A DNA stretch of 47,632 nt from Acetobacteraceae bacterium. GTDB lineage: Bacteria > Pseudomonadota > Alphaproteobacteria > Acetobacterales > Acetobacteraceae. Positions 8,157-47,632 of this stretch are shown here, one piece after another; position 1 is the first letter of the stretch, and every line of letters begins with the position of its first letter. The notes under the pieces were generated by a model that saw nothing but the letters and a program-made list of their open reading frames with translations, did no database searches and was not told the origin of the DNA. The position numbers and the translations under genes are program-made. The stretch spans positions 1 to 47,632 of the forward strand of contig JADLHF010000077.1 in the NCBI GenBank assembly GCA_020848935.1, in the 5' to 3' direction.

Positions 8157-8256
8157 CGGAAATGCCGACAGGAATGATGTTCCATCCCATGGACTCAACA
8201 AAACCGCACTGATTATCCTTTACGCGCCCGCGCTCGTGCCAAAGACTCCAGCGAAC

Positions 8257-8300
8257 GGAAGTTTTTTGGTTCTTTTTTCAAAAAAGAACATGCTTTCTTG
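8257..8300 (-). repeat. A/T hairpin module, subtype 1, single (locus A)
   Basis: Begins directly after the stop codon of the DUF1499 gene (minus strand) and separates it from convergent recQ. Arms GTTCTTTTTT (8269-8278) and AAAAAAGAAC (8280-8289) are perfect 10-mers around one base. Read from the DUF1499 side it gives GCAAGAAAGCAT, hairpin, CCAAAAAACTT. Same module as at 18.4, 42.7 and 45.1 kb. Probably a 3'-end or terminator-type structure. Confidence 0.85.
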
Positions 8301-8765: not shown

Positions 8766-9043
8766 GGCGCCTCGTCGGGCGCCAGGCGCAGGCGGATCAC
8801 CCCGCGCGCCTGTTCCGGCGGCACCTTCTTGCCCTTGCGCAGCAGGTCGATGCGGCCCTCGCCGGCCAGCCGCAGCGCGCCGCGCCGCACGGCGGACAAA
8901 TGGCGGTGCCAGGCATCGGGGTCGCGGTCGTCGGGCCGGGTTGCCGCCTGGAAGGCGCGCGCCACCGCCACCGGGTCGGCCGAGCCCGGCGCGCAGGCGC
9001 GCAGGTGATCCAGCAGGAAGGCTTCGAGCGGGGATATGTTCAC
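8762..9043 (-). CDS. DUF3253 domain protein (winged-helix-like)
   Basis: Small protein (93 aa) starting at GTG 9043; the only ATGs in this frame lie far upstream inside the EAL gene. The pattern matches DUF3253: an N-terminal helix (ISPLEAFLLDHL), PVAVARAF, W-x-x-HLSAVRRGALRLAGEG, and a C-terminal strand ending RGVIRLRL. Such proteins look like small winged helices, but no function is established. Starts 7 nt after the EAL stop and overlaps the DUF1499 start by 4 nt. Confidence 0.8.
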   Translation of the reverse strand: MNISPLEAFLLDHLRACAPGSADPVAVARAFQAATRPDDRDPDAWHRHLSAVRRGALRLAGEGRIDLLRKGKKVPPEQARGVIRLRLAPDEAP

Positions 9044-9050
9044 CCGCCCT

Positions 9051-9926
9051 CTATGCCGCCGCGCCCCCTGCCACCGCAAGGGCGCCGAGGCGCAGGTGGA
9101 ACTGTTCCTCGGGCAGCGGCTGGCTGAACAGGTAGCCCTGGGCATGGTCGCAGCCCATCGCGGCCAGCAGGCAGCGCTGCGCCTCGGTCTCCACCCCCTC
9201 GGCCACCACGCCGAGGCCCAGCGCGTGGCCGATATCGACGATCGCCTGCGCGATCGCCACGTCCTCGGCGTCGTCCGGCAGGGTACGCACCAGGGCGCGG
9301 TCCAGCTTGATCTGCTCCAGCGGCAGGCGCTTGAGCATGTCCAGGCTGGCCAGCCCGGCGCCGAAATCGTCCAGCGTGATGCCAACACCGAGGTCGCGGA
9401 TGGCCGACAGCGCCAACAGCGTGTCCAGGTTGTCATCCATCAGGATCGCCTCGGACAGCTCGATCTCCAGCCGCTCCGGCGCCAGCCCCGATCCTTCCAG
9501 GGATCCGCCGATCTGGCGCAGCAGTTCCTGGTCGTGCAATTGCCGCGCCGAGACGTTGACCGCCACGCGCACCCCTGCCGGCCATGTCATCGCCGCCAGG
9601 CAGGCCGCCCGCATCACCCAGGCGCCGATATCGGTGATCAGCCCGGACTGCTCGGCCACCGGGATGAACGAACCGGCGGCCATCAGCCCGCGCCGGCGAT
9701 GCGGCCAGCGGATCAGCGCCTCGCCGCCGGTGATCTCCCCGCTGCCCAGCGCGATGCGCGGCTGGTAGTGCAGCACGAAGCTTTCCTGCGCGGTGGCCTC
9801 GCTGAGGTCACGCCGCAGGCGCCGCAGATGGGCGCGCTCGGCTGGGGATTCGGCATATGCCACGCGGCCAGCCAGGCGGCGAGGACGGGCCTCGCGGGGT
9901 GGGTCGGAAAACAGGGCAGGGCGCAT
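9051..9926 (-). CDS. EAL-domain cyclic-di-GMP phosphodiesterase
   Basis: 291 aa, essentially one EAL domain (about 45-285) with a short basic N-terminus and no GGDEF, PAS or membrane segment. Residues needed for c-di-GMP hydrolysis are present: EAL at 69-71, Asn124, Glu156/Glu159, DDFG at 186-189, Lys207, Glu243 and Glu246 in AEGVET, and Gln263 in QGY. It should therefore be an active, soluble phosphodiesterase. First gene of a three-gene minus-strand unit; the upstream region (9927-10122) is shared with a divergent hypothetical gene. Confidence 0.9.
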   Translation of the reverse strand: MRPALFSDPPREARPRRLAGRVAYAESPAERAHLRRLRRDLSEATAQESFVLHYQPRIALGSGEITGGEALIRWPHRRRGLMAAGSFIPVAEQSGLITDIGAWVMRAACLAAMTWPAGVRVAVNVSARQLHDQELLRQIGGSLEGSGLAPERLEIELSEAILMDDNLDTLLALSAIRDLGVGITLDDFGAGLASLDMLKRLPLEQIKLDRALVRTLPDDAEDVAIAQAIVDIGHALGLGVVAEGVETEAQRCLLAAMGCDHAQGYLFSQPLPEEQFHLRLGALAVAGGAAA

Positions 9927-18420: not shown

Positions 18421-18548
18421 AAGGATGTTCTTTTTTGAAAAAAAGAACCAAAAAACTTTCATTCACTTGGCCGTCGCCGGATGATCCACGGGAAACGAAC
18501 GAAAAGTCTTTTTGCTTCTTTTTCTTCAGAAAAAGAAGATCTTTCTTG
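18421..18548. repeat. Paired A/T hairpin modules, subtypes 1 and 2 face to face (locus B)
   Basis: Fills the gap between convergent zur and purC. Subtype 1 (arms GTTCTTTTTT 18427-18436 and AAAAAAGAAC 18439-18448) follows the zur stop; subtype 2 (arms CTTCTTTTTCT 18515-18525 and AGAAAAAGAAG 18528-18538) follows the purC stop on the other strand. Between them are CTTTCATTC and GAACGAAAAG, weakly complementary, leading into T-runs in both directions. Looks like a bidirectional terminator. Confidence 0.85.
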
Positions 18549-26464: not shown

Positions 26465-26509
26465 AGCAAGCCCTTCTTTTTGTGAACAAAAAGAAGCAAA
26501 AAAACTTTG
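26465..26509 (+). repeat. A/T hairpin module, subtype 2 variant, single (locus C)
   Basis: Downstream of the AI-2E gene, same orientation. Arms CTTCTTTTTGT (26473-26483) and ACAAAAAGAAG (26486-26496) are perfect 11-mers; flanks are GCAAGC on the left and CAAAAAAACTTTG on the right. Its centre (GTGAAC) differs from the loci B, E and F modules but matches the module at 36.6 kb. Confidence 0.85.
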
Positions 26510-36493: not shown

Positions 36494-36593
36494 GCTTGCC
36501 TGTCTTGTTGGGGGGGACGCGTCGAGACTCCGTGAGCGCCCCCCTCCGGCTCCCCCCGTAAAGCACGGGGGGAGAGAAGGTGAAAAGAGTGAA

Positions 36594-36640
36594 GTTTTTT
36601 TGCTTCTTTTTGTTCACAAAAAGAAGGCCTTCTTGTTTAT
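36594..36640 (-). repeat. A/T hairpin module, subtype 2 variant, single (locus D)
   Basis: Arms CTTCTTTTTGT (36603-36613) and ACAAAAAGAAG (36616-36626), preceded by AAGTTTTTTTG. Overlaps a second, 14-nt palindrome AAGAAGGCCTTCTT (36621-36634), so two alternative hairpins compete. Oriented as the 3' element of the cyclic amidohydrolase gene, about 75 nt past its stop. Confidence 0.85.
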
Positions 36641-41968: not shown

Positions 41969-42601
41969 TCAGCCGAAGGTGCGGAGCAGGTCTTCCACCT
42001 GGAGGGCCGTGAGGGTGCGCGTGGCCTGACCGCGCAGCAGCAGGTAGAGCTTGGCGGCTTCTTCCAGTTCCTCGGCGGCATGGACGGCGTCGCGCAGGTT
42101 GGCGCCGGAGACGACGGGGCCGTGATTGGCCAGCAGGATCGCGCGCGCGCCCTTGGCCGCGGCGTGGATGGCCGGCTCCATGGCAGCGTCGCCGGGGCGG
42201 TAATACGGCACCACCGGCATGCTGCGGCCGATGCGCATGACGAAATACGGCGTCAGCGGCGGGATCGGGTTGGCGGGATCGACATCCTCCAGGCAGGCCA
42301 CCGCAGTGGCCATGGTGGAGTGCAGGTGCACGACGGCGCCGGCATCGGGGCGCGCCCGGTAGAAGGCGCGGTGCATGAACACCTCCTTGGACGGCTTGTC
42401 GCCGGCGAGGTGGGTGAAGTTGTCGTCGAGCTTTGAGAGGCGCGCGGCATCCAGGCGGCCGAGCGAGGAATTGGTGGGGGTCATCAGGTAGCCGTCGGGC
42501 AGGCGGGCGCTGATGTTGCCGGCCGAGCCCACGGAGAAGCCGCGGGCGAAGAGGGAGGCCGAGAGTTCGACCAGTTGGCCGCGCAGTTCAGCTTCGGTCA
42601 T
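41969..42601 (-). CDS. otnC: Class II aldolase family protein, probable 3-oxo-tetronate 4-phosphate decarboxylase
   Basis: 210 aa. Zn ligands His92 and His94 (HLHST), His160 (ANHG) and catalytic Glu73 are present, with SAGNIS near 26-31. OtnC is favoured over FucA or AraD by the otnK gene immediately upstream on the same strand. The reaction releases CO2 and dihydroxyacetone phosphate. A double A/T hairpin module lies between the two genes. Confidence 0.85.
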   Translation of the reverse strand: MTEAELRGQLVELSASLFARGFSVGSAGNISARLPDGYLMTPTNSSLGRLDAARLSKLDDNFTHLAGDKPSKEVFMHRAFYRARPDAGAVVHLHSTMATAVACLEDVDPANPIPPLTPYFVMRIGRSMPVVPYYRPGDAAMEPAIHAAAKGARAILLANHGPVVSGANLRDAVHAAEELEEAAKLYLLLRGQATRTLTALQVEDLLRTFG

Positions 42602-42631: not shown

Positions 42632-42765
42632 TCAGAAGGAAGGTCTTCTTTTTCTGCAGAAAAAGAAGCAAAAAGACTTTATTCATTTCAGGCAGCCGTA
42701 TGACGTGCTGATGATTGAAAGTTTTTTGGTTCTTTTTTTCAAAAAAGAACATGCTTTCTTGCTCC
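42632..42765. repeat. Paired A/T hairpin modules, subtypes 2 and 1 (locus E)
   Basis: Lies inside the otnK-otnC unit. Subtype 2 is a perfect 24-nt palindrome (42645-42668, centre CTGCAG). Subtype 1 has arms GTTCTTTTTT (42729-42738) and AAAAAAGAAC (42741-42750) and follows the otnK stop. Between them CAGC-CGT and ACG-TGCTG form a central stem, flanked by ACTTTATTCAT and ATGATTGAAAGT. Confidence 0.88.
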
Positions 42766-42777
42766 CTCAGGCACCCG

Positions 42778-44052
42778 TCAGGCGGCGCCTGTACTGGCGA
42801 ATGCCTTGAGGAAGAAATCCGGCGCGCCGAAATTGCCGCTTTTCAGTGCCAGTTTCATGGTGGGACCGCTGCCTTCGGCCAGGGTCCAGGGCACGCCGGG
42901 GTCGATCTCGGCGCCGATGCGCAGGCTGCGCACGCCCAGCTTCATCGCCACGGCGCCCGAGGTTTCGCCGCCGGCGACGACCAGGTTGCGCACGCCGCGC
43001 GCGACGAGGCCTTCGGCGATGGCGGCCATGGCGGTTTCGATCAGCGTGCCGGCGGCCTCGCGGCCCAGCTTCGCCTGCAGGGCGGCGACCTGTTCGGGCG
43101 GGGCGGAGGCGGCGATCAGCACCGGCACGGCGCCCAGCTTGCCGTCGGCCCAGGCCAGTGCCTGTTGCGCCAGGGCGGCGGCGTCTGGCGTGGCGAGGGC
43201 GTCGAGCTGGAGGGTGGGAACCACCTCGCGCGCGCGGCCGATCTGGAACAGGGTGGCGCGCGAGCAGGAGCCGGCGAGGACGGCGGCGTGGCCTGCGATG
43301 TCGGGCAGGGCGCCGGGGTTGGCCTGGACCGCGAGTTTGCCGGCGCGGCGGAAATTCTCCGGCAGGCCGATGGCGATGCCGGAGCCGCCGGTGAGCAGGG
43401 CGTGGCTTTCGGCGGCCTCACCGATGGCGCGCAGGTTGGCGTCGGTGACGGCATCGGTGATGGCGTAGCGGTGGCCCTGTTCCTTCAGCGCGGTCATGGC
43501 GCGGCGGGTGGCGACGGCACCTTGCTCGACGGTGGCGAAGGGGACGAGGCCGACGGTGCCGGAGGTCTGGCGGCCGAGGACGCGGACAAGGTTGGCATCC
43601 GTCATCGGGGTGAGCGGGTGGTTCTGCATGCCGCTTTCGTTGAGCAGCACGTTTCCGACGAAGAGATGGCCCATGTAGATGCTGCGGCCGTTGACCGGGA
43701 AGGCGGGGCAGGCGAGCGCGAAGCCGCAACCCAGCGCGGCGACCAGGGCGTCGGCGACCGGGCCGATATTGCCTTCGTCGGTGCTGTCGAAGGTGGAGCA
43801 GTATTTGAAGAAGAACTGCGCGCAGCCGGCGGATTTCAGCCAGTCCAGTGCGGCGAGGCTTTCGGATACCGCCTGGGCGACCGGGGCGGTGCGGGATTTC
43901 AGGGCGACGATGATGGCGTCGGCATCCGGTACCGGGTCGCCGGGAGCCGGCGCGCCGATCACCTGGACGGTGCGCATGCCGTTGCGGACCAGGGTGGAGG
44001 CGAGGTCGGTGGCGCCGGTGAAGTCGTCGGCGATGCATCCCAGAAGGGGCAT
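42778..44052 (-). CDS. otnK: 3-oxo-tetronate kinase (DUF1537 family)
   Basis: 424 aa four-carbon acid sugar kinase. N-terminal sugar-binding domain starts GCIADDFTGATDLAS; the middle has KYCSTFDSTDEGNIGPV and CPAFPVNGR; the nucleotide-binding C-terminal domain has VAGGETSGAVAMKLG and GAEIDPGVPW. It phosphorylates 3-oxo-tetronate for OtnC. ATG 44052 follows the methyltransferase stop by one nt. The substrate side of the pathway (dehydrogenase and isomerase) may be the pair at 23.6-25.3 kb. Confidence 0.88.
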   Translation of the reverse strand: MPLLGCIADDFTGATDLASTLVRNGMRTVQVIGAPAPGDPVPDADAIIVALKSRTAPVAQAVSESLAALDWLKSAGCAQFFFKYCSTFDSTDEGNIGPVADALVAALGCGFALACPAFPVNGRSIYMGHLFVGNVLLNESGMQNHPLTPMTDANLVRVLGRQTSGTVGLVPFATVEQGAVATRRAMTALKEQGHRYAITDAVTDANLRAIGEAAESHALLTGGSGIAIGLPENFRRAGKLAVQANPGALPDIAGHAAVLAGSCSRATLFQIGRAREVVPTLQLDALATPDAAALAQQALAWADGKLGAVPVLIAASAPPEQVAALQAKLGREAAGTLIETAMAAIAEGLVARGVRNLVVAGGETSGAVAMKLGVRSLRIGAEIDPGVPWTLAEGSGPTMKLALKSGNFGAPDFFLKAFASTGAA

Positions 44053-44053
44053 G

Positions 44054-44932
44054 TCAGGTCTCCTCGGGCCAGGCCGTGCCGGGCGGCAAGGCGAGACTGT
44101 CGCGGTGGCCGATGCGCATGGCAAGTCGGCCCCGGTCGATCTGGCGGGCGCGCAGGGCGGCCCAGGTGCGGATGGCCGCACGGCGGTCGGGGATGCGGCA
44201 GGCGGCGACCTCGGCGTGGCTGGCCACCAGCATGTCGAGCATATCGGCGGAGATGGGCGAAATGCGCCAGTCGCTGGCGGCGCTGCGCAGGGTGAAGCCG
44301 CGCGCGGTGAAGGCGGCGTGCAGGGCGGCCGGCGCGTGTGGGCCGAGGGCGACGCCCAGGCCCTTGGCGCGCTGTTGATCCCGGCGAAAGCCGGCGAAGA
44401 CGGTGCGGTCGAGCGGGTGGGCGGGGCGGAGCACGTCGCGGCCATCGACGGAGAGGCAGGCGAGCAGGGGCTTCTTCAGCGTCGCGGCGAGGCGGGCCAG
44501 CCAGTCGGCGGACACCAGGTCGAGCAGGGCACTGCACACCACCGCGTCGTGGCGGTTCAGGCGCAGCCCGGCGAGCGGGGCGGCGAGGTCGACGATCTCG
44601 GCCTCGACGCGCCAGGCGCCTTGCGTGGTGTGGACCAGCAGGGCGTCGCCGGAGATGGTGGTGGCAAGGCCGCGTGCGGCGGCCCAGGCGGCGATCGCGG
44701 TGAAGGCGCGGGCCAGCAGGGCGGGGTCGGCGTCGGCCAGGGTCCAGCGCTGCGGGCCGCGCAGGATGGGGGCCAGCCAGCGGAACAGGCTGCCGGTGCC
44801 GGCGCCGAGGTCGATCAACGCCGGGCGCGGGGGCAGGGCGCGGGCGAGGGTGTGCGCGAGCGCGCGGCTGCGGGCGGCGGCGTCGTGGGGTTCGCGCAGG
44901 GCGAGCCAGTCGGCGTCGAAGTGCTCGGGCAT
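44054..44932 (-). CDS. Class I SAM-dependent methyltransferase-like protein
   Basis: 292 aa. SAM motif I is LIDLGAGTGSLFRWL (39-53), motif II contains TLADADPALL, and DAVVCSALLDLVS lies at motif IV. The C-terminal ~100 residues are an additional region (SDWRISP, RTWAALRARQID). Not attributable to a known substrate. It comes after the glycosyltransferase on the same strand, separated by a double hairpin, and touches otnK; it may belong functionally to the pterin-like cluster. No RNA-methyltransferase motifs are seen. Confidence 0.8.
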   Translation of the reverse strand: MPEHFDADWLALREPHDAAARSRALAHTLARALPPRPALIDLGAGTGSLFRWLAPILRGPQRWTLADADPALLARAFTAIAAWAAARGLATTISGDALLVHTTQGAWRVEAEIVDLAAPLAGLRLNRHDAVVCSALLDLVSADWLARLAATLKKPLLACLSVDGRDVLRPAHPLDRTVFAGFRRDQQRAKGLGVALGPHAPAALHAAFTARGFTLRSAASDWRISPISADMLDMLVASHAEVAACRIPDRRAAIRTWAALRARQIDRGRLAMRIGHRDSLALPPGTAWPEET

Positions 44933-44952
44933 TCAGGATAGGGGAAAGGGAA

Positions 44953-45090
44953 GGGAAGAATCTTCTTTTTCTGAAGAAAAAGAAGCAAAAAGACTTTTAT
45001 TCATTTTCTTGGTGTGGCGCCGGCCTACGCCCACACTCCAATGAATGAAAGTTTTTTGGTTCTTTTTTTCAAAAAAGAACACCTTCCTAC
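44953..45090. repeat. Paired A/T hairpin modules, subtypes 2 and 1 (locus F)
   Basis: Between the glycosyltransferase and methyltransferase genes (same strand). Subtype 2 arms CTTCTTTTTCT (44962-44972) and AGAAAAAGAAG (44975-44985); subtype 1 at 45059-45080. The centre is a stem: ATTCATT (44999-45005) with AATGAAT (45040-45046), and inside it GTGTGG (45012-45017) with CCACAC (45031-45036). T-runs follow on both sides, as in bidirectional terminators. The 126-nt gap is fully explained by it. Confidence 0.9.
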
Positions 45091-46130
45091 CCCTTGCCTT
45101 CACTGAGCCGTATCACTGCCGCGGCAAACTCCGCCCCCTGGGTGGACCAGTCGGGCAGGGCCTGGCCAGCCTCGAACGCGGCCTGGGCCATGTCGGCGCG
45201 CAGCTCGGTGTCGAAGATCACCCGGCGCAGGGCCTTGGAGTAGGTGACGAGGTCGCCGACGTCGCAGGCGATGCCGGCCTCGTCGGGCACCAGCGCGCCG
45301 GCGGCGCCGCCCTTGGTGATGGCGACGGGCAGGCCGCGCTTGAGGGCTTCGGCGATGACCATGCCGTAGCCCTCGTATTCGGTGGCCAGGGCGAAGATGT
45401 CGGAATTCTGCCAGAGGGTTTCCAGGGCATCGCCGGTGAGGGTGCCGACGAAGCGGACGCGCTGGATGATTTTCAGCTCCTCGGCGAGGTTGGTCAGTGT
45501 CTGGGCGTAGACCGGGTCCGGCGTGCCGCCGGCGATGGTGAGATGCCAGTCGAGGTCGAACAGGCGGGCCAGGGCGCGCAGCAGGAGTTCGTGGCCCTTG
45601 CGCGGGATGAGGGCGCCGACGGACAGGATGTGGCAGGTGGGGGAGCCGGAACCGGGGGAGCGGGGGGCGGGGTCGGTGCCGGGGGCCACGGTGGCGATGC
45701 GCCCGGGGGCGACGGCGAAGTCCTTCGCCAGGGTTTCCGCGGTGGTGTCGCTGGTGACGATGCAGCCGGACAGCGCGGGGAACATCCGCGCCTCGATTTC
45801 GGCCAGGGCGGCGCGGTCGGCGTCCGGGGTGCCGGCTTCCAATGACGTTGGGTGGTGGATCAGGCCGAGGGTGGGGCGGTCGTCGATAAGGCCGTCGAAG
45901 GCGGGCAGGCCGAGGCCGTCGATCAGCGGCAGGGCATCGGGGGGGAGGGCGGCCCAGGCGTCGCGGGCGGATTGCCTTGCGGTGGCGTCGGGGAGCGGAT
46001 GGCGGCCGGCGAGTTCGAGAACATCGACGGTGTGGCCGGCGGCGCGCAATTCGGCGATCACGCGCCGGTCGTAGCCGTAGCCGCCGGAGATGGTGGCCAG
46101 CGGGGCGGGGACCAGGAGGGTGAGGCGCAT
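45087..46130 (-). CDS. GT4-family glycosyltransferase
   Basis: 347 aa GT-B glycosyltransferase. The N-terminal domain starts LTLLVPAPLATISGGYGYDRRVI, with YGYDRR unlike the usual GG-rich start; the C-terminal domain has LSVGALIPRKGHELLLRAL and the E-x7-E-like donor site YEGYGMVIAEALKRGLPVAIT near 270-290. Donor and acceptor are unknown. Its ATG overlaps the stop of the PTPS-like gene (TGATG), so the two are translationally coupled and it probably glycosylates the product of that pathway. No signal peptide or membrane segment. Confidence 0.87.
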   Translation of the reverse strand: MRLTLLVPAPLATISGGYGYDRRVIAELRAAGHTVDVLELAGRHPLPDATARQSARDAWAALPPDALPLIDGLGLPAFDGLIDDRPTLGLIHHPTSLEAGTPDADRAALAEIEARMFPALSGCIVTSDTTAETLAKDFAVAPGRIATVAPGTDPAPRSPGSGSPTCHILSVGALIPRKGHELLLRALARLFDLDWHLTIAGGTPDPVYAQTLTNLAEELKIIQRVRFVGTLTGDALETLWQNSDIFALATEYEGYGMVIAEALKRGLPVAITKGGAAGALVPDEAGIACDVGDLVTYSKALRRVIFDTELRADMAQAAFEAGQALPDWSTQGAEFAAAVIRLSEGKG

Positions 46131-46531
46131 CAGTAGAGTGGGGCTTCGTAGGCGGCCCAGGCGGTGGGGGCCTCGCGCAGCAGCACTTTCAGCCCGGTGG
46201 CGGCCTGACCGCCGGCGCCGAGGGTGCCGGCCTTCAGGGCGGCGGCGAGCAGGGTCCAGATGTGGTGGGCCATGTGTTCCGTGGTGGTGTTCTGGCCGGC
46301 GAACTGCGGCAGGGTGTCGAGGTTGTGGTAGTCCACCGTGTCGAGGATCCGTCGCAGCTCGGTCTTGGCCAGGCCGATGTCGATCAGCAGGTTGTGCGGG
46401 TCGAGTTTCGGTGCGCGGAACTCGGCCTCGACGGCGTAGGTGGCGCCGTGCAGGCGCTGGGCGGGGCCGAACTCCTCGCCGTGGAAACTGTGGGCGATCA
46501 TGATGTGGTCGCAGACGGTCAGGCTGAACAT
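46130..46531 (-). CDS. Divergent 6-pyruvoyl-tetrahydropterin synthase / QueD homologue
   Basis: 133 aa T-fold protein. Related to PTPS/QueD by DHIMIAHSF, LHGATY, YHNLDTL and TTTEHMAHHIW, in the expected order. However the catalytic Cys region (usually C-x-x-x-HGH) reads AQRLHGA: the Cys is absent and the second zinc His is Ala30. The acidic residue of TTTE is kept. So the classical reaction on dihydroneopterin triphosphate is doubtful. ATG 46531 overlaps the dehydrogenase gene by 13 nt. It lies between a dehydrogenase and a glycosyltransferase. Confidence 0.82.
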   Translation of the reverse strand: MFSLTVCDHIMIAHSFHGEEFGPAQRLHGATYAVEAEFRAPKLDPHNLLIDIGLAKTELRRILDTVDYHNLDTLPQFAGQNTTTEHMAHHIWTLLAAALKAGTLGAGGQAATGLKVLLREAPTAWAAYEAPLY

Positions 46532-47484
46532 GATTCCGCGTTCCCATAGGTGACGACGTGGCAGAGACCGCCGGCCAGCAGGCGCGGCATGGCGGTGGGC
46601 AGATCCTCGAACGCGGTCGCCGGTTCGAGAAGGGCGTCGTATGCGGGATCGGCGAGCAGGTCCAGGGCGAGGGCGAGGCGCTGGGCGTGGGTTCGCCGGC
46701 CGCGCATGGCGGGGGCGATGCTGCCGACCTGGGTGGAGAGCAGGCGCAGGCGGCGGGCGTGGAAGGCTTCGCCGAGCGGGAGCGCGGGGGCGCGGTCGCC
46801 GAACCAGCTGGCCTCGATGATGCGGGCCTCGAAGGCGGCGTGGGCGAGGGCGGCGCGCAGGCCGGATTCGGTGGCCGAAGCGTGGACGATCAGCTCCTGG
46901 TCGCCCGGTGCGTCGGCGGGCAGGGCGAAGCGGCAGCCGAGGCGAACGGCGAGGGCTGCGCGGGTGGGGTCGATATCGACCAGGGTGACGGTGGCGGCCG
47001 GCGTGCGGGCGAGCAGGCTGGCGGCGAGCAGGCCGACGACGCCGGCGCCGACCACCAGGATGCGCTCGCCGGCCAGGGGGGCGGCGTCCCAGGCGATGTT
47101 GAGCGCGGTTTCCATGTTGGCGGCCAGGGTGGCGCGCCGGGTGGGGAGTGCGGCGGGGACCGGGATGCACATGGCGGTGGGGGCGTTGAAGCGGTCCTGG
47201 TGCGGGTGGAGCACGAAGACGCGGCGGCCTTCGGGGTCGGTGGCGACGGCGCTGTAGCCGTATTTCACCGGGAAGGGGAAGGCGCCCGCCATCAGGGGGG
47301 CGGCCATGGTGGCGAACTGGCTGGGCGGCACGCGGCCGGCGAAGACCAGGGATTCCGTGCCGCGGGATATTCCGGTGGCCAGGGTGGCCAAGCGGGTCTG
47401 GCCGGGTGCGGGGGCGGGCAGGGGCTCGGGGCGGATTTCGCCGCGGCCGGGGGCGACGGTCCAGAAGGCGCGGGCGGTTGTCAT
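46519..47484 (-). CDS. Medium-chain dehydrogenase lacking the catalytic zinc site
   Basis: 321 aa of the MDR/zinc-type alcohol dehydrogenase superfamily. Nucleotide motif GAGVVG at 146-151 and Asp170 at the end of strand 2 suggest NAD. The usual catalytic Cys is replaced in ISRGTES (40-45), similar to zincless members such as the BchC bacteriochlorophyllide dehydrogenase group, and the structural zinc lobe is absent. Substrate unknown. Overlaps the PTPS-like gene and follows the RibD-C-like gene by 13 nt, all on the minus strand. Confidence 0.83.
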   Translation of the reverse strand: MTTARAFWTVAPGRGEIRPEPLPAPAPGQTRLATLATGISRGTESLVFAGRVPPSQFATMAAPLMAGAFPFPVKYGYSAVATDPEGRRVFVLHPHQDRFNAPTAMCIPVPAALPTRRATLAANMETALNIAWDAAPLAGERILVVGAGVVGLLAASLLARTPAATVTLVDIDPTRAALAVRLGCRFALPADAPGDQELIVHASATESGLRAALAHAAFEARIIEASWFGDRAPALPLGEAFHARRLRLLSTQVGSIAPAMRGRRTHAQRLALALDLLADPAYDALLEPATAFEDLPTAMPRLLAGGLCHVVTYGNAESCSA

Positions 47485-47497
47485 GTGCCGGTGGGGG

Positions 47498-47632
47498 TCA
47501 TGTGCGCGCCAGGGGGATGTCGAACAGCAGGTCTTCGCCGAGGTGGTGCACCTGCCAGTCCAGCCGCAGGCCGTCTTCCGGGCGGGCGACGCCGGGCAAA
47601 GTGAAGGCGGGGATGCCGGAGCCCAGCAGCAA
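47498..47632 (-). CDS. RibD C-terminal-domain (pyrimidine reductase) family protein, partial
   Basis: Only the last 44 residues are in the window (LLLGSGIPAFTLPGVARPED ... GEDLLFDIPLART, then TGA at 47498). The LLLGSGIPAF block followed by an HHLGEDLLFDI strand is typical of the RibD C-terminal/dihydrofolate-reductase-like fold, which reduces a pyrimidine intermediate in riboflavin synthesis. Because only a fragment is visible, the assignment is moderate. It is the most upstream gene seen of the cluster; further genes probably lie beyond the edge. Confidence 0.6.
   Translation of the reverse strand: MLLGSGIPAFTLPGVARPEDGLRLDWQVHHLGEDLLFDIPLART

Follow-up and report, generated by a model that had tools for sequence, protein, structure and literature searches.

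A conserved gene set around a PTPS-IV protein in an alphaproteobacterial contig, and its possible route starting at the GTP cyclohydrolase II product

Introduction

What do five neighbouring genes at the right-hand end of an alphaproteobacterial contig, one of them encoding a protein of the PTPS/QueD fold, make together? The window, by which we mean the whole 47,632-nucleotide stretch that was analysed, is contig C77 of a genome of 4.6 Mb in 301 contigs (95% complete), whose closest named relatives, judged by this locus in a scan of species genomes, are Acetobacteraceae-type genomes. On its minus strand, in order of transcription, lie genes for a RibD_C-type reductase, a medium-chain dehydrogenase/reductase (MDR), the PTPS-fold protein and a GT4 glycosyltransferase, then a repeat, then a methyltransferase gene. 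The original prediction, made from the sequence alone, took them for a candidate undescribed cluster that could convert a GTP cyclohydrolase product into a glycosylated, perhaps methylated, pterin-like molecule. Our best reading is similar, namely that a pyrimidine or pterin would be formed via a ribityl-pyrimidine and would carry a sugar and usually a methyl group.

Conservation of the gene set

The genes are closely packed: the reductase gene stops at position 47498, 13 nt from the MDR gene, the MDR and PTPS genes overlap by 13 nt, and the PTPS and GT4 genes overlap by 1 nt, exactly as first described. To see how far the set is conserved, we searched 142 alphaproteobacterial genomes, evenly drawn. 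PTPS matches were found in 15, of which 14, the window's own genome included, are of the cluster type; the fifteenth genome, G066, matched weakly, through a protein of canonical type that lies outside any such cluster. Among the 13 other cluster-type genomes, the MDR, GT4 and methyltransferase genes each neighbour the PTPS gene in 12, the absences falling at contig ends, and a RibD_C gene lies nearby in nine. An MDR profile (E 1e-30) matched 14/14 PTPS-positive and 0/128 PTPS-negative genomes (Fisher p ~1e-19), and a methyltransferase profile matched 13 of the 14 and no others (Fisher p 2e-17); as both profiles were built from cluster loci, this test addresses absence elsewhere.

A wider scan of species genomes gave at least 588 confirmed relatives. 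The matches listed include 80 loci, 44 of Acetobacteraceae type and 36 others, with an MDR gene nearby in 78, GT4 in 76, the methyltransferase in 68 and a RibD_C protein in 66. Within the window's own family, 35/80 genomes carry PTPS-IV, the subfamily to which the window's PTPS protein belongs (see below). Also among the matches listed, the block occurs in Actinobacteria (Streptomyces, Actinomadura, Amycolatopsis, Actinoplanes), in Beta-, Gamma- and Deltaproteobacteria (Zoogloea, Marinobacter, Salinicola, Kushneria and one deltaproteobacterium), in Gemmatimonadales and in one acidobacterium. Similar sets had been expected in other alphaproteobacteria; they are indeed there, but their range reaches far past that class. 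A chance neighbourhood of unrelated genes is refuted by this exact co-occurrence, with gene order kept across phyla. The genes co-occur in other genomes as predicted, and the five of them almost certainly form a real, dedicated biosynthetic unit.

The PTPS-IV protein

The 133-aa protein encoded at 46130..46531 (minus strand) contains a PTPS domain (PF01242, 85.6 bits), and its closest PDB match, which spans the full length with E 1.9e-61, is 3d7j (Streptomyces coelicolor SCO6650). It carries the FGPAQ motif, the published signature of the PTPS-IV subfamily (PMC5445326), and is therefore a PTPS-IV protein. Within 30 diverse homologues F21, G22, A24 and Q25 are invariant, and P23 is found in 29.

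We mapped residues by alignment with the canonical PTPS 2g64. In all 30 homologues the position of the catalytic Cys is occupied by Ala, and HGH has become HGA, so that one ligand of the three-His zinc site is lost; A24 and A30 are both invariant. The positions of the catalytic Asp-His pair mostly hold Asn-Tyr or Asp-Tyr, and the His position never holds His. Because the family's catalytic residues are lost, the protein is not expected to act as a PTPS or QueD. The structure paper on SCO6650 reportedly found neither zinc nor PTPS activity. In contrast to the lost residues, T82, T84, E85 and E120 are invariant in 30/30 sequences and align to the ring-binding region of the pterin pocket, with E120 at the place of the Glu that anchors the pterin ring in PTPS enzymes.

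The loss of Cys, Asp-His and zinc ligand in a family that keeps the pterin anchor throughout would suit a non-catalytic protein that binds or carries a pathway intermediate while the MDR, RibD_C, GT4 and methyltransferase proteins do the chemistry. However, other polar residues (Q25, N70, D72 and N81) are very strongly conserved, which suggests a working active site, and we consider a pure carrier role rather unlikely.

The partner enzymes

The reductase gene runs off the window. Its 3' end occupies 47498..47632 (minus strand), and the rest lies on contig C235 of the same genome (G000:C235/L009 9171-9782), the window's final 127 bases being identical to the end of that contig; read across this 127-nt overlap, a single open reading frame encodes 248 aa. 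The join is supported by the relatives, which share the reductase-MDR junction, often with flgI upstream as here. With the 5' part from C235 added, the protein matches RibD_C (PF01872) with 133 bits as its only domain, and a domain search of the 248-aa protein found no deaminase domain. A profile of the RibD_C family scores best against two stand-alone diaminopyrimidine reductases, 6p8c and 2azn (167 and 141 bits), and at most 120 bits against chains named RibD.

The 321-aa MDR (46519..47484, minus strand) was modelled by AlphaFold2 with a pLDDT of 92.7, and its best Foldseek matches are RspB and sorbitol/iditol dehydrogenases, giving it a polyol-dehydrogenase-like fold. In alignments, the region of the first zinc-ligand Cys reads SRGTE, with Ser in 32/32 sequences, and the His-Glu zinc-ligand region, as assigned by eye, reads YGY. 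Judged by these motifs, the enzyme appears to be without the catalytic zinc ligands of zinc-dependent alcohol dehydrogenases.

The 347-aa GT4 glycosyltransferase (45087..46130, minus strand) matches PF00534 (Glycos_transf_1) with 96 bits, and its closest PDB structures are 3c4q/3c48, both of MshA, although the NCBIfam MshA model scores 70 bits, below its cut-off. MshA acts on inositol phosphate. Together, the resemblances of the MDR, GT4 and reductase give a weak hint of a side chain of polyol type, for example ribityl. Last, the class I S-adenosylmethionine-dependent methyltransferase (44054..44932, minus strand, 292 aa) was assigned by alignments, a structure model (pLDDT 96.4) and a Methyltransf_25 match of 27.6 bits, barely above cut-off.

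A proposed pathway from the RibA product

Where would the substrate come from? A GTP cyclohydrolase had been expected to the right of the window. Past the remaining part of the reductase, C235 instead continues with a copy of the repeat and with genes for a protein weakly resembling FlgN, for FlgI and for a DksA-family protein; further along it encodes two solute-binding proteins, FlgH and a chaperone of FlgA type. Genes for a cyclohydrolase or for riboflavin, queuosine or folate synthesis do not adjoin the set in the window or in its continuation on C235, and so the prediction that none of those three pathways has an operon here holds just outside the window as well.

A GTP cyclohydrolase II domain was found in two proteins of this genome. 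One is an intact RibA, with its zinc cysteines, on contig C87 (L122 2743-3996). The other is a RibBA on contig C162 (L123 7233-8351), in which the cyclohydrolase II domain is the second domain and is without zinc cysteines; this RibBA lies together with RibD and riboflavin synthase in a riboflavin locus apart from the cluster. Because of the missing cysteines in RibBA, the RibA on C87, the sole apparently intact one, presumably serves riboflavin synthesis, and it could also feed the cluster pathway. We would like to note separately that a response-regulator family encoded beside RibA here (L122 1767-2483) is also found downstream of the methyltransferase in three other genomes (loci L027, L031 and L035; family c8).

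Elsewhere, RibA stands beside the set in 4/13 of the other alphaproteobacteria and in 12/28 diverse loci with full flanks. That RibA often adjoins the set, and that this genome has an intact ribA and a separate riboflavin operon, supports a start from the RibA product. We therefore think it probable that this product is the pathway's substrate, and give an even chance to the fuller statement that a dedicated pathway starts from it and has these genes as its core, with RibA encoded elsewhere in this genome. A second copy of the canonical riboflavin, folate, queuosine or biopterin pathway would draw on the same protein families, but the full riboflavin genes are on C162, the motifs of PTPS types I-III are absent, and neither que nor fol genes lie next to the set, all of which makes such a copy highly improbable.

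On this basis we propose five steps, given in order of falling support. First, the RibD_C reductase would act on 2,5-diamino-6-ribosylamino-pyrimidinone phosphate and reduce its ribosyl chain to ribityl, a role suggested by the profile's preference for stand-alone diaminopyrimidine reductases and by the missing deaminase domain. As the riboflavin-type deamination would be skipped, the 2-amino-4-oxo ring would be kept. Second, the PTPS-IV protein may grip the pyrimidine, or a pterin derived from it, via its conserved Glu and carry out a step other than the zinc/Cys/His side-chain chemistry of PTPS or QueD. Third, the MDR, as a zinc-less polyol-type dehydrogenase, would work on the polyol side chain. 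Fourth, GT4 could glycosylate the polyol or its phosphate, and fifth, the methyltransferase, where present, might cap the product. Taken as a whole, this five-step chain is tentative, and we think it somewhat more likely to be wrong in part than right throughout.

Several points weigh against the proposed pathway. In the window's own clade RibA lies beside the set in 0/34 full-flank loci. The methyltransferase is absent from some loci, two of which (L065 and L067) also have no MDR or RibD_C gene nearby, and its model has no close structural neighbour, the fold search returning generic class I relatives only. Fold resemblance says nothing firm about substrates, and product, substrates and activities are all predicted here. 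A glycosylated, methylated, GTP-derived product, as originally predicted, is a fair deduction.

F420 synthesis

According to one paper, which cites unpublished work for it, PTPS-IV functions in the synthesis of F420 (PMC5041015). An F420 role was considered seriously since this genome has cofD, and it was rejected on co-occurrence counts. On the side of such a role stand the published statement, the presence of both cofD and cofE in this genome, and cofD in 11/11 of the actinobacterial cluster genomes tested. Among the alphaproteobacteria, however, cofD occurs in 4/14 cluster-positive and 19/128 cluster-negative genomes (Fisher p 0.24), and of 22 cluster-positive genomes spanning several phyla 11 have it: every one of the 11 actinobacteria does, and the 11 others, each with an intact cluster, all lack it. 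Since intact clusters occur in genomes without cofD, the cluster is not a general component of F420 synthesis, and we hold a role there to be very improbable. The CofD- and CofE-type genes of this genome lie at about 7400-11100 of L124 (G000:C79), beside what look by eye like luciferase-type F420-dependent oxidoreductases.

Lipid-type accessory genes

Outside the window's clade the core often has further company. Of the diverse full-flank loci, 22/28 encode a CDP-alcohol phosphatidyltransferase whose catalytic motif is intact, and the family of this enzyme occurs in 7/14 alphaproteobacteria with PTPS-IV versus 1/128 others (p 1e-7). A flippase-like protein with an LPG_synthase_TM domain is found in 17/36 diverse loci, a sulfatase-type protein in 6/36, and YceI is less common. 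These counts would fit a lipid-linked product, in which the phosphatidyltransferase joins the polyol-pyrimidine or glycoside to a lipid that the flippase-like protein and YceI then handle. This explanation cannot be general, though, as the cluster-type phosphatidyltransferase is absent from the window's genome and from the flanks of its clade relatives (0/34), and we judge it unlikely. For the same reason the lipid side, if real, is optional, and it is absent here. As a separate observation, one genome (G127:C71:9974-10606, L131; 74% complete) has the phosphatidyltransferase, and no PTPS-IV was found in it.

A more speculative thought is that the cluster makes a new class of metabolites, a 2-amino-4-oxopyrimidine or pterin with a glycosylated, methylated ribityl-type polyol, in which a zinc-free PTPS-fold enzyme would perform new chemistry and which in many lineages a dedicated CDP-alcohol phosphatidyltransferase would attach to membrane lipid; we put this forward as possible but doubtful.

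The intergenic repeat and the clade-specific neighbours

Between the GT4 and methyltransferase genes, at 44933..45086, lies what the original prediction called a hairpin pair. The methyltransferase does follow it, but the element is a single copy of a repeat, roughly 150 bp long and with inverted arms rich in T, that is interspersed between genes. The genome has about 50 matches to it, which lie in both orientations, and two close relatives carry it too. Further copies in the window are at 42644-42751 and 18421-18540, with partial ones at 8245-8290, 26473-26508 and 36592-36626, and L009 has two, at 2831-2948 and 8987-9107. No Rfam match was found for the repeat or anywhere in the window.

On the other side of the methyltransferase, 1 nt past its stop, begins a gene for 3-oxo-tetronate kinase (OtnK; 42778..44052, minus strand; NF043035, 615 bits over cut-off), and next comes a gene for a class II aldolase family protein, OtnC-like and conserved with OtnK (41969..42601, minus strand; PF00596, 170 bits). 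OtnK follows the core in 37/44 Acetobacteraceae-type loci and in 0/36 of the others; in eight of those 37 no methyltransferase was detected, and OtnK lies close behind GT4. The surrounding region (flgI, citrate synthase and prpD-like genes) is also syntenic in the window's clade. A functional link of OtnK and OtnC to the pathway is possible, but membership is not shown, because lineage synteny explains the conservation equally well.

Comparison with known systems

PTPS-IV is a subfamily of COG0720 (PMC5041015; PMC5445326), and neither paper gives its product. In the second (AGeNNT, 2017), the PTPS-IV neighbourhood, cluster node 62 with 561 sequences, holds GTP cyclohydrolase II (PF00925) and RibD_C (PF01872). 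To that extent the cluster is not undescribed. A literature search by gene-family combination and SCO numbers, with subscription journals mostly outside its reach, found no product and no description of an MDR-PTPS-GT4-methyltransferase core. The subfamily was recognised about ten years ago, and its members go under the general names 6-pyruvoyl or 6-carboxytetrahydropterin synthase. The partner set, the evidence against an F420 role and the lost active-site residues make the product directly testable in tractable genera of the laboratory, such as Streptomyces, Marinobacter and Salinicola, and its identity would account for hundreds of genes across several phyla.

Similar to the published PTPS-IV neighbourhoods, the window's protein has the FGPAQ signature, and its set shares their RibD_C and GTP cyclohydrolase II neighbours, with RibD_C adjacent here and RibA encoded elsewhere in the window's clade but adjacent in many relatives. 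What is added here is the MDR/GT4/methyltransferase core, together with the optional genes of lipid type and a test of the F420 suggestion. SCO6650 belongs to the same subfamily over its full length, but it comes from another phylum and was deposited as uncharacterised, and its actinobacterial relatives have the CDP-alcohol phosphatidyltransferase, and often RibA, adjacent. QueD (PTPS-I) and PTPS (PTPS-II) share the T-fold family, the pterin-binding Glu and the HG motif with the window's protein, which in contrast has neither the Cys, the second His of HGH nor the Asp-His pair. The stand-alone 2,5-diamino-6-ribosylamino-4(3H)-pyrimidinone 5'-phosphate reductases (6p8c and 2azn), the best profile matches, have the same stand-alone RibD_C fold but work in riboflavin synthesis, whereas the window's reductase stands apart from the riboflavin genes. 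MshA and other GT4 enzymes acting on polyol phosphates are the closest solved relatives of the window's GT4, though its similarity to MshA is low. Finally, a riboflavin operon brings together the RibD deaminase-reductase with the RibE, RibB and RibA functions, an arrangement that the cluster does not have and that is instead represented in this genome by the separate locus on C162.

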